A stretch of DNA of 64,000 bases from Microtetraspora sp. NBRC 16547. GTDB lineage: Bacteria > Actinomycetota > Actinomycetes > Streptosporangiales > Streptosporangiaceae. Under the pieces are notes generated by a model that saw only the letters and a list, made by a program, of their open reading frames with translations, was not told the origin of the DNA and made no database searches. Position numbers and translations under genes: made by a program. Shown in pieces: positions 10,340 through 19,433 of this stretch; the first letter of the stretch is position 1, and each line of letters starts with the position of its first letter. The DNA lies in the NCBI RefSeq assembly GCF_030268965.1, contig NZ_BSSE01000003.1:389512-453511 (forward strand), in the 5' to 3' direction.

Positions 10340-11140
10340 TCACCGTGTCTGGGGGTCACCACCGGACAGGCGCTGGGCAATATAGATCGGGACGACGGAG
10401 ACGACGATCAGCGCGGCGGCGACGACGTTCACCACCGGAGCCTGATTGGGCCGGAACAGGTTCTCGAAGATCCAGATCGGCAGGGTCCTGACCCCGGCGC
10501 CCGCGGTGAACGTGGTCACGATGATCTCGTCGAAAGACAGCGCGAACGCCAGCAGGCCGCCCGCCAGCAGCGCCGAGCGCATCATCGGGAACGTCACCAG
10601 GCGGAACGTGGTGAACGTGTCCGCGCCGAGGTCGGCCGACGCCTCCTCCACGTTCAGGCCCATGCGGCGCAGCCGCGCCAGCACGTTGTTGTAGACGGTC
10701 ACCACGCAGAACGTCGCGTGCCCGACGATCACGGTGAACAGCCCGAGGGGGATGCCGAGCACCGAATGGAACGTGTTGCTCAGCGCGATGCCGGTCACGA
10801 TGCCGGGCAGCGCGATCGGTAGCACGATCAGCAGCGACACCGTGTCACGGCCGAAGAACCGGTAGCGCTGCACGGCGAACGCCGCCATCGTCCCCAGAAC
10901 CAGCGCGATCGCGGTCGCGCCCAGCCCCGCCTGGACCGACGTCCACAGCGCGTCGCGCAGGCCCGTGGACCGCCAGGCCGCGCTCCACCACTGGAGCGTG
11001 AACCCCTGGGGAGGCCACCCGAAGGTCCGGTCGGAGTTGAAGGAGTTCAGCAGGACCACGCCGAGTGGCACGTAGATGACGCCGAGGCCGAGGGCCAGCG
11101 CCGCCCACAGCGACGCGCGAGCCGTACGGGACAGATTCAC
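10340..11140 (-). CDS. potC: Spermidine/putrescine-type ABC permease PotC
   Basis: A 266-residue inner-membrane permease with six helices. The ABC importer EAA loop is visible as EEASADLGADTFTTFRLVTFP, near residues 165-185, where the ATPase PotA docks. It is the last gene of the minus-strand potADBC operon. The start is GTG 11140, which overlaps the stop of a 23-residue mini-ORF that begins at the potB stop, so translation probably runs from potB through the mini-ORF into potC. AAGGAG also lies 8 bases before the GTG. Polyamine specificity is by family only. Confidence 0.88.
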   Translation of the reverse strand: MNLSRTARASLWAALALGLGVIYVPLGVVLLNSFNSDRTFGWPPQGFTLQWWSAAWRSTGLRDALWTSVQAGLGATAIALVLGTMAAFAVQRYRFFGRDTVSLLIVLPIALPGIVTGIALSNTFHSVLGIPLGLFTVIVGHATFCVVTVYNNVLARLRRMGLNVEEASADLGADTFTTFRLVTFPMMRSALLAGGLLAFALSFDEIIVTTFTAGAGVRTLPIWIFENLFRPNQAPVVNVVAAALIVVSVVPIYIAQRLSGGDPQTR

Positions 11141-11208
11141 CGGGCCTCCTTCGTCGGCAGGTGAATCAGGTCGCCGCGCTTCCTGGTTCGTTCGCTTCGC
11201 TCTCTCAC
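11137..11208 (-). CDS. Mini-ORF bridging potB and potC (SERSERT-type repeat)
   Basis: A 23-residue ORF, GTG 11208 to TGA 11137-11139. Its GTG overlaps the potB stop (GTGA) and its TGA overlaps the potC GTG (GTGA). The product begins V-R-E-R-S-E-R-T and the first 23 bases (11208 down to 11186) match the repeat before trpC at 18541-18563 in 20 of 23 positions. The peptide itself may be meaningless. The perfect overlaps at both ends suggest a translational bridge. An alternative is that this is merely a short repeat insertion with fortuitous overlaps. Confidence 0.45.
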   Translation of the reverse strand: MRERSERTRKRGDLIHLPTKEAR

Positions 11209-12071
11209 AGATTCTCCAGGGCTCCGGTACGGCGGACCGCCGCCAGGTACACCAGCATGATCACGACCGGCACGGTCGCGACGGCCGCGGCGAAGGGCAG
11301 GTTGTTCGCCGCGCCGATGTTGTCGTAGACGACGTTGCCGATGAGCTGCGATTTCCCGCCCACGATCTTCACGGTGATGTAGTCGCCCAGCGACAGCGAG
11401 AAGGTGAAGATCGAACCCGCCACGACGGCGGGGAAGCTGAGCGGCCACACCACGGTGCGGAACGTCCGCCAGCCCCGCGCGCCCAGGTCACCCGCCGCGT
11501 CGAGCAGCGAGGACGGCAGGCGCTCCAACCCGGCGTAGATCGGCAGGATCATGTACGGAAGCCACAGGTACGAGAGCGTCGCGATGGTGGCGCCCAGGCC
11601 GTAGCCCCAGCCGAGCACGCCGTCCGCGGACAGCATCACCCGCCACGCGTACGCCTTGACCAGGTAGGACGCCCACAGCGGGGTGAGCACCAGGATCACC
11701 AGCCAGCGCTGGGCGCGCGGCGAGGCGAGCTTGGCCATGGCGAACGCCATGGGAAAGGCGACGATCAGGTCGATGAGCGTGACCGCGACCGCCACGCCCA
11801 GGGAGCGCAGGGCGATCGTCCGGTACACGTCCCCTGTCACCAGGTCCTGGAAGTTCGCCCAGGTGAACGTCCTGATCAGATCGCCGGTGAACGTGTCGGT
11901 CGACCAGAACGCCGTCACGAAGAGTGCGGCGAGCGCGCCCAGGTAGGCGAGTCCCAGCCACGCCAGCGGCGCTGAGAGCAGCAGCGACAGCCGTACCCGC
12001 GCGTGGCGGTGCAGGAAGGCGGCCACCCGCGCGCGTGGACCGGTACGGCCGACGGCGGCCGAAGTAGTCAT
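11205..12071 (-). CDS. potB: Spermidine/putrescine-type ABC permease PotB
   Basis: A 288-residue permease partner of PotC with about six membrane helices. The EAA loop appears as LLDAAGDLGARGWRTFRTVVWP. The ATG at 12071 is chosen over the longer frame because GGGAGA stands at proper distance and the N-terminus then starts MTTSAAVG ahead of the first helix. It follows potD on the minus strand by 76 bases, which contain a strong hairpin. Confidence 0.88.
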   Translation of the reverse strand: MTTSAAVGRTGPRARVAAFLHRHARVRLSLLLSAPLAWLGLAYLGALAALFVTAFWSTDTFTGDLIRTFTWANFQDLVTGDVYRTIALRSLGVAVAVTLIDLIVAFPMAFAMAKLASPRAQRWLVILVLTPLWASYLVKAYAWRVMLSADGVLGWGYGLGATIATLSYLWLPYMILPIYAGLERLPSSLLDAAGDLGARGWRTFRTVVWPLSFPAVVAGSIFTFSLSLGDYITVKIVGGKSQLIGNVVYDNIGAANNLPFAAAVATVPVVIMLVYLAAVRRTGALENL

Positions 12072-13469: not shown

Positions 13470-13565
13470 GGCCCGGCCGGGAAGTGGGTGGGACCGGCTC
13501 AGGGCCGGCCGGGAAGTGGCTGGGACCGGCTCGGACGTGGCGGGGACGTGGCGGGGATGTGGCGG
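13470..13565. repeat. 31-bp direct repeat plus 11-bp triplicate between potA and potD
   Basis: Two near-identical 31-base units at 13470-13500 and 13502-13532 (29 of 31 matching) are followed by three 11-base units GGACGTGGCGG / GGACGTGGCGG / GGATGTGGCGG at 13533-13565. Neither period is a multiple of three and no gene is present. The array lies in the potA-potD intergenic space of the operon. Confidence 0.8.
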
Positions 13566-13573
13566 GGAAGGCG

Positions 13574-18020: not shown

Positions 18021-18452
18021 ATGACGGCGACAACGCGTGAGCGGCGCGGCGCGGACCGGATTCGGTCGGTGCTCGCGCCGCTCGGCGTCGCGGCGGTCAC
18101 CGGCGCGGCCTTCGCGTTCGTGGGCTCCGTGGACCCCAACCAGCCCGGGCACTACCCGACGTGCCCCTTCCTCTTCCTGACCGGGCTCTACTGTCCCGGC
18201 TGCGGCACGCTGCGCGCGATGCACGCGCTCGCCCACGCCGACCCGCTCACGGCCCTCGGGTTCAACCCGCTCGCGATGGCCACCGTCCCGTTCCTGCTGT
18301 TCTGGTGGGGGCGCTGGACGCTGCGCTCGTGGCAGGGGCGGCCCGTGCGCACCACCTTGGCGCGGCCCATATATCTGTGGGCCTTCCTCGCCCTCGTGAT
18401 CGTTTATTGGGTGGTGCGGAACCTCCCATTCGGCCGCGTCCTGGCACCCTGA
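18021..18452 (+). CDS. DUF2752 membrane protein
   Basis: 143 residues with three hydrophobic segments. The family signature TGLYCPGCGTLRAMHAL (CPGCG) is near residue 60, followed by the FNPLAMATVPF motif. The family is widespread in actinobacteria and Bacteroidetes and is of unknown function; the CxxC may bind metal or be redox-active. It follows the CD225 gene closely, and that pairing suggests a shared membrane role. Confidence 0.85.
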   Translation: MTATTRERRGADRIRSVLAPLGVAAVTGAAFAFVGSVDPNQPGHYPTCPFLFLTGLYCPGCGTLRAMHALAHADPLTALGFNPLAMATVPFLLFWWGRWTLRSWQGRPVRTTLARPIYLWAFLALVIVYWVVRNLPFGRVLAP

Positions 18453-18540
18453 CGACACCCGATGGCCGAGCGGCCCCGGCGAGGCCGATAGCATCGGCAG
18501 GGCAAGGTAGCGACAGCAGCGACCGGAGGGACCGCTTCTC

Positions 18541-18624
18541 GTGAGCGAGCGTAGCGAGCGAACAGGTTTGCGCGGCAGTGTTCACTCATGCGGGCTCCGA
18601 GCCGATGGCGAGGAGGGCTCATGA
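18541..18624 (+). CDS. Mini-ORF overlapping the trpC start (SERSERT-type repeat)
   Basis: A 27-residue ORF from GTG 18541 to TGA 18622-18624. The stop overlaps the trpC ATG (ATGA). GGAGGG lies about 10 bases before the GTG. The product begins [13 protein letters not shown]. The first 23 bases are a near copy (20/23) of the repeat between potB and potC. No Trp codons are present, so it is not a classical Trp attenuator peptide. It may couple ribosomes into trpC; an alternative is that the repeat simply landed in the leader. Confidence 0.42.
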
Positions 18625-19433
18625 GCGTTCTCGACGAGATCATCGTCGGTGTCCGTGAGGACCTGGAGGCCCGGCAGAAGGCCGTGCCGATCGAGCTTCT
18701 CAAAGAGCGCGCCGGACGCGCGCCGGCGGCGAAGGACGCCTACGCCGCGCTCGGCGGCGACAAGGTCTCGGTGATCGCCGAGGTGAAGCGTTCGAGCCCG
18801 TCCAAGGGCGCGCTCGCCGCCATCGCCGACCCCGCCGCCCTGGCCGCGGACTACGAGGCCGGCGGCGCGCACGTGATCAGCGTGCTGACCGAGCGGCGCA
18901 GGTTCGGCGGCACCCTGGAGGACCTGGCCTCGGTCCGGTCCGCCGTGGACATCCCCATCCTGCGCAAGGACTTCATCGTCACCTCCTACCAGCTTTGGGA
19001 GGCCCGGGCGTACGGCGCGGACATCGCGCTGCTGATCGTGGCCGCCCTGGACCAGAACGCGCTGGTCTCGCTCATCGAGCGAGCCGAGTCGATCGGCCTG
19101 GCCGCGCTGGTCGAGGTGCACACCGAGGAGGAGCTCGACCGCGCGCTCGCCGCGGGAGCCAAGATCATCGGCGTCAACGCGCGCAACCTCAAGACCCTGG
19201 AAGTCGACCGGGACGTCTTCGCAAAGATCGCGCCCAAGATCCCCGAGGGCATCATCAAGATCGCCGAGTCGGGCGTGCGCGGCCCGCACGATCTGCTCGC
19301 GTACGCGCGGGCCGGGGCGGACGCGGTGCTGGTCGGCGAGAGCCTGGTCACGGGCAAGGACCCCAGGGCCGCCGTGAACGACCTGGTGACCGCCGGCGCC
19401 CACCCATCGTCACGGCAGGAGAGGCAGTCGTGA
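18621..19433 (+). CDS. trpC: Indole-3-glycerol phosphate synthase TrpC
   Basis: 270-residue (beta/alpha)8 enzyme that closes the indole ring from CdRP. Catalytic motifs are [13 protein letters not shown] (substrate-binding Lys), LRKDFIV (catalytic Lys), [15 protein letters not shown] (Glu), GVNARNLKT and [11 protein letters not shown] 18621 is chosen because GAGGAGGG is well placed and the family N-terminus MSVLDEII begins there. The stop overlaps the trpB start (GTGA). Confidence 0.96.

Follow-up and report, generated by a model that had tools for sequence, protein, structure and literature searches.

Mini-ORFs at the potB–potC junction and upstream of trpC

We analyzed a window of 64,000 nt, meaning the whole stretch of DNA under study, whose minus strand carries neighboring genes for a potB-like and a potC-like permease. 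Both genes match BPD_transp_1, and their best NCBIfam models are PotB and PotC, with scores below the cut-offs of those models. The junction between them and a second site at trpC comprise the following features:

11205–12071, minus strand: potB-like permease gene, upstream (Pfam/NCBIfam matches)
11137–11208, minus strand: mini-ORF of 23 codons plus TGA; its start overlaps the potB stop and its stop overlaps the potC start
11141–11208, minus strand: whole inserted unit including the left GTG, delimited by the empty sites L161 and L164 and by comparison of copies
11186–11208, minus strand: 5′ module, a diverged copy of RTGAGCGAGCGNAGCGAGCGAAY with 2 mismatches
11160–11167, minus strand: left hairpin arm GATTCACC, within the unit
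11141–11156, minus strand: 3′ module CGACGAAGGAGGCCCG, with the Shine–Dalgarno (SD) sequence GGAGG inside (11145–11149)
11134–11141, minus strand: right hairpin arm GGTGAATC, across the potC start codon (46-nt segment, z −3.76)
10340–11140, minus strand: potC-like permease gene, downstream, the insertion target
18525–18530, plus strand: SD-like GGAGGG, 5′ of the second unit; it directly precedes trpC in L321 and L326
18541–18624, plus strand: second copy, a mini-ORF of 27 codons plus TGA (unit proper 18541–18620)
18621–19433, plus strand: trpC, the insertion target

On the minus strand, potB ends in CTG GAG AAT CTG TGA, with the stop codon at 11207–11205, and the GTG at 11208 opens the mini-ORF, whose product is VRERSERTRKRGDLIHLPTKEAR and whose TGA (11139–11137) overlaps the GTG of potC at 11140 as GTGA. 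The first-pass annotation had described the whole gap as a single 23-codon ORF with such overlaps at both ends, and the coordinates confirm this. It had also reported that the beginning of the mini-ORF is a repeat that recurs before trpC; indeed, 20 of its first 24 bases are identical in the copy at 18541 (plus strand). The 5′ repeat is thus real, but its size had been underestimated: the 3′ end CGACGAAGGAGG followed by a start codon is also seen in other copies, and since the gap ends in CGACGAAGGAGGCCCG we take the whole gap as one repeated unit of 68 nt, from the left G to the base preceding the potC GTG. Units in the window are 65–80 bp long, with their own SD at the 3′ end, adjoining the next start codon. 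Both copies end on the start of a gene, as had been claimed, the 27-codon ORF of the trpC copy terminating on the trpC ATGA. That this second copy also bridges two genes did not hold: the ORF that stops at its TGA, 127 codons long, is read in a different frame from the ORF terminating at 18452, and in L238, one of the three congeners, it is not open. Between positions 10900 and 18800 of the window, Rfam gave no match at the gathering threshold. A GC-rich tandem repeat with a 32-nt period (2.7 copies) lies at 13473–13570, upstream of a gene for a solute-binding protein.

Distribution of the repeat

The genome-wide search that the first-pass annotation had proposed returned eight copies at ≤3 mismatches to GTGAGCGAGCGNAGCGAGCGAAC in the 7.8-Mb genome and none of the reversed pattern. 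In seven of the eight, the ORF stop overlaps a start codon, in keeping with what had been anticipated; the exception, L009 (G000:C33:43429-43451), ends on GTAG, and its middle is expanded into repeated CATCGC-type units. Scanning the genome_contigs set with AGCGAGCGNAGCGAGCGAAY, in which the start codon is left open, yielded at least 119 loci holding 132 copies, 118 of them preceded by ATG, GTG or TTG. Among the matches listed, 74 of 80 bear actinobacterial titles, and no Mycobacterium occurs among these 74. By eye, the copies follow one layout, in which the 5′ module leads through a variable middle into a second conserved stretch, often CCGAGCGNAGCGAGG or CGACGAAGGAGG, right ahead of a second start codon; some copies stand in tandem.

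Exact 5′ modules are present in 25 of 394 sampled genomes of the class and in 14 of 138 genera. At ≤1 mismatch, the eight genomes counted hold between 5 and 52 copies (Aeromicrobium piscarium 52, Catellatospora coxensis 35, Micromonospora globbae 25, Nocardia pneumoniae 21), with reversed-pattern counts of zero in seven genomes and two in G065. Core arrays in which GAG or GGG replaces the start codon occur in one genome (G008:C2:373923-374174 and contigs C11, C13 and C15), at a spacing of ∼114–116 nt and without a kept frame. An Acidobacteria bin (L059, 4446–4558) contains four 31-nt tandem cores without start codons, whose likeness to the repeat is probably unrelated. Literature searches with the repeat and SERSER strings found nothing related, and none of the matches listed for MIRU combined with other actinobacterial genera concerned such units by title.

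Empty sites and frame-keeping length variation

A relative of potC is present in 18 of 60 genomes. In L161 and L164, potB and potC overlap directly as GTGA with no gap, which provides the comparison with repeat-free orthologous junctions that had been suggested; in L160 they are separated by a 13-nt spacer. Three congeners carry diverged units of 68, 65 and 56 nt, all ending on the potC start and encoding differing peptides. In L157, 8 nt separate the potB stop from the beginning of the unit; the left overlap seen in the window may accordingly stem from a small deletion or be original.

For trpC, we read 30 of 58 matching genomes. A mini-ORF of 26–80 nt ending on the trpC start was present in 11 of the 30, and a twelfth, L320, fits by eye. 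In L321 and L326 the same SD stands immediately 5′ of the trpC start without a unit; 15 further regions, including the ambiguous L327, had no such unit. Several genera of the family have the trpC unit, at lengths of 26, 56, 68, 71, 77 and 80 nt with the frame kept. The window's genome and three congeners encode one and the same trpC peptide. This repeated change of length with the frame kept suggests that translation through the unit is under selection. The natural pairs of junctions with and without a unit could be used to measure translational coupling. At the trpC of G006 (L329), a unit remnant is fused in frame as an N-terminal extension of TrpC, VSERTEGPSVLD. Fusions of this type are a likely source of SERSERT-like N-termini, for which units fused in frame or annotated as part of a gene offer an explanation.

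Reading frame and start/stop overlap across copies

A wider set comprised 283 distinct copies at ≤3 mismatches, drawn from L001–L155 and L234–L313; the copies are related, and the counts given here are not numbers of independent events. The left start codon is present in 250, and the 33 copies that lack it were set aside. Where a start codon and a visible stop coexist, 232 of 244 copies end in DTGA and 12 otherwise. We picked the start of the next gene by ORF length and SD alone, ignoring frame, which gave a candidate for 213 of the 250 copies, 194 of them within the SD limit; in 167 of these 194 it lies 2 mod 3 from the left start, the distance required for the stop to overlap it. The 2 mod 3 spacing also holds for 34 of 39 pairs of tandem neighbors, as against 2 of 13 pairs in which a member lacks its start codon. 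An SD-like word stands 5′ of the right start in 170 of 196 copies and 5′ of the left start in 127. The two start codons are the same in 163 of 196 copies; where they differ, left GTG with right ATG (22) outnumbers the reverse (11), which fits a later GTG-to-ATG change at the right end.

As these genomes are rich in RTGA junctions, the placement of the repeat on them might be thought coincidental: of 711 background RTGAGC sites, 191 terminate an ORF of ≥100 codons, compared with 148 of 245 copies in which such an ORF ends on the repeat's TGA. At ≤3 mismatches, however, the 24-mer was found in 0 of 100 shuffles of the window, and this, together with the empty reversed-pattern count in the genome and the frame excess described above, refutes a chance origin, to which we give practically no credence. 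The reading put forward in the first-pass annotation, a mobile or copied repeat that inserts between genes, is supported: the empty sites, the DTGA ends and the kept frame show a copied element that enters at start codons and leaves the stop/start overlap intact.

A MIRU-like element at start codons

Mycobacterial interspersed repetitive units (MIRUs) were reportedly described by Supply et al. in 1997. In mycobacteria, they are mainly used for strain typing. A review portrays MIRUs as short, apparently mobile repeats that insert at start codons and contain an ORF whose coupling to the target gene involves a spacing of −4 nt (PMC12548453). The principle of start-codon insertion, which the first-pass annotation had not recognized, is thus already described for mycobacteria in that source. 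We consider it very probable that the present unit belongs to this kind of short element, mobile now or in the past, inserted at start codons and near-silent.

Upon insertion, such a unit would enter at the target's start codon and leave one start codon at each end. The left RTG, which shares the TGA of an upstream gene if one is present, starts an ORF of roughly 20–36 codons that crosses the unit to a TGA overlapping the target start, just before which the unit supplies a fresh SD. A ribosome finishing potB, or loading at the native SD of trpC, would thereby travel along the mini-ORF and on into the following gene, which would make the insertion nearly silent. The peptide would carry little weight, and what is preserved are the frame, the overlaps and the hairpins. 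The comparison of sequences shows the unit, its insertion sites, the kept frame and the covariation; judging from these, the units would have moved, would couple translation by reinitiation and would be close to neutral.

Like MIRUs, the units sit at start codons (a left start in 250 of 283 copies; empty sites at potC and trpC), and their internal ORF overlaps the next gene by 4 nt (DTGA, 232 of 244). We checked the upstream regions of regX3 in the family of N. pneumoniae (G060), where 119 genomes have RegX3 and 30 regions were read. One of these, L205, contains two MIRU-type units by eye. Of 12 distinct GAGCGAAGCGATG-type sites examined in its genome, G152, seven lie in 53-nt ORFs ending on a start codon; for the other five, no such ORF was found within the roughly 45 nt covered. 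The 53-nt units have DTGA at both ends, GAGCGAAGCGA and an SD. The present family shares with them GAGCGAAGCGA and the SD before the right start, an 11-base likeness that cannot prove common descent. It differs in its hosts, which are mostly other than Mycobacterium, in its 5′ end (RTGAGCGAGCGNAGCGAGCGAAY, as opposed to ATGACCMGCRCYRRCGACGATG-like in the G152 units), in its peptide, in carrying a GA/GNA module at each end rather than at a single end and in its variable 3′ modules. Because the 3′ string is shared but the 5′ end is different, we call the units MIRU-like and not MIRUs. Nor do they have the terminal inverted repeats of a MITE, as their two related modules lie, by eye, in the same orientation. 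With these units, the class known from mycobacteria would extend to many other actinobacteria, the principle being known and the sequence family apparently different.

Proposed GNA mini-hairpin modules

At position 12 of the 5′ module, the third base of a codon, all four nucleotides occur freely (C 111, G 52, T 38, A 33), whereas the other third positions (6, 9, 15, 18 and 21) hardly vary, a test that is limited by the search pattern. This combination is not explained by peptide constraint and fits a hairpin. In the proposed model, a GNA loop would be closed by pairs C10–G14 and G9–C15, followed by G–A pairs 8/16 and 7/17; the outer part would comprise C6–G18 and G5–C19, G–A pairs 4/20 and 3/21, T2–A22 and R1–Y23. 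The outermost pair covaries: ATG occurs with T in 82 copies and with C in 39, and GTG with T in 3 and with C in 63. Of the 39 ATG/C exceptions, 19 come from one Aeromicrobium genome (G065) and 15 from the genome_contigs set; without G065, the counts are 81 (ATG/T), 20 (ATG/C), 3 (GTG/T) and 60 (GTG/C). The commonest single change, A22 to G (13 copies), retains a T–G pair. Taken alone, the 23-nt module gave the expected fold, but its energy was not more favorable than that of shuffled sequences (RNA z −0.20 and −0.11; DNA z +1.56 and +1.32), and the diverged potB copy in the window did not fold at all. The proposal therefore draws on the free position 12, the R1–Y23 covariation and an analogous 3′ module, not on energy.

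This 3′ module, in which GA, a stem, a GN(N)A loop, the second half of the stem and GA follow one another, was present in 106 of 213 units, compared with a mean of 0.65 and a maximum of 4 in 40 shuffle sets. Its stems are GC/GC, CC/GG or GCC/GGC and its loops GNA or GNNA; the remaining units, among them the potB–potC copy in the window, have other 3′ ends. GNA or GNNA loops closed by at least two G–C pairs form unusually stable DNA mini-hairpins, according to the work of Hirao and co-workers (PMC4686876). Both loop types and the two or more G–C pairs are found in the units as well; in that work, the mini-hairpins are treated as a chemical structure in designed DNA and not as part of a mobile element.

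The same position-wise pattern bears on whether the SERSERT peptide acts through its amino acids, for example as an arrest or regulatory leader peptide. Most copies do begin with M/V-S-E-R-S-E-R, and the constancy of the trpC peptide among congeners would suit such a role. The residues after the first eight nevertheless vary widely while the unit ends are conserved, the potC peptides of the congeners differ, and no Pfam or NCBIfam model matched the mini-ORF peptides. With the third-position pattern running contrary to it, within the limits of the search pattern, conservation at the peptide level is not supported, and we regard a functional leader peptide as very unlikely.

Predicted pairing across the target start codon

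The SD and the right start codon lie within a larger predicted hairpin. Right-end segments gave a mean z of −2.35 (n = 86), compared with 0.0 for left-end segments (n = 83). In the window, GATTCACC is predicted to pair with GGTGAATC across the potC start in the 46-nt segment with z −3.76; the fold of the whole potB–potC unit (z −0.83) and the right-end hairpin at trpC (z −0.09) speak against the hairpin reading. The right start also covaries with the opposite base of the arm, ATG being found with T in 62 units, C in 34, A in 9 and G in 11, and GTG with C in 30, T in 2, A in 5 and G in 6.

Hairpins that hold the SD and start codon could alternatively be immobile cis-acting elements that regulate translation and are inherited or rebuilt by selection, a reading with which the right-end z values and the presence of the trpC unit in several genera of the family agree. 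It accounts poorly for the patchy spread (25 of 394 genomes), the 5 to 52 copies per genome counted, the occurrence at unrelated genes and in tandem arrays and the empty sites in relatives, and we consider it improbable. We retain the MIRU-like mobile element as the preferred explanation.

Complementarity between the arm and its own target beyond the start codon was scored after setting aside 44 units that directly precede another copy. The arms fit their own targets better than swapped genes: scores of ≥5 were reached by 22 of 169 units, compared with a mean of 9.0 and a maximum of 17 when genes were swapped (n = 300). For targets with AGC as second codon, 16 of 119 scored ≥5, where swaps averaged 7.0 and reached at most 15, and the mean score of this group was within the swap range; for other second codons, 6 of 50 did (swap mean 1.8, maximum 6). 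In a smaller first test with 66 copies in one comparison and 48 in the other, swaps reached the observed value in 102 and 22 of 2000 cases, respectively. Gene-specific complementarity is a minority effect, and it could arise from compensating change after insertion.

Tentatively, and with rather low confidence, we suggest that the MIRU-like units may move as folded single strands that find their targets by base pairing. On the left, R1–T2 of the target would close the hairpin with A22–Y23 of the element over the tandem G–A pairs and the GNA loop. At the right end, the inner arm of the element would base-pair with the start codon and a portion of the target gene. The element would thus carry its specificity for start codons as a short built-in guide, or this specificity would be re-established by compensating change after insertion. 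In the literature searched, we found no base-pairing mechanism for the movement of MIRU-like units; the covariation fitting GNA/GNNA mini-hairpins with GA–GA pairs, the start-codon hairpin and the partly target-complementary arms are apparently new. The covariation offers a concrete handle on how units move and choose start codons.

Y1 transposases and the repeat

REP/BIME and IS200/IS605-type elements are short and dispersed and have hairpin ends, as do the present units. Hairpin-like modules near the ends and a short fixed target are typical of the IS200/IS605/REP-type class, which the units resemble in this respect; they differ in carrying an ORF and in sitting at start codons, and no association with Y1 was found. 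They might still be non-autonomous copies spread by a Y1 transposase acting on the hairpins, and the window's genome does contain 25 matches to Y1_Tnp. Such matches occur, however, in 5 of 11 repeat-bearing genomes and in 7 of 30 that lack the repeat, two congeners that carry it have none, and GAGCGNAGCGAG was absent from 30 Y1 loci that total 97 kb and represent about three fifths of the matches listed. As Y1_Tnp does not track the repeat, a Y1 transposase is not supported as the mobilizer, and we think this source of mobility most improbable. Many of the 25 matches in the window's genome are partial (e.g. C18:17594-17959), and the three congeners have 0, 3 and 0; this abundance likely reflects a recent expansion of an IS200/IS605-type element.
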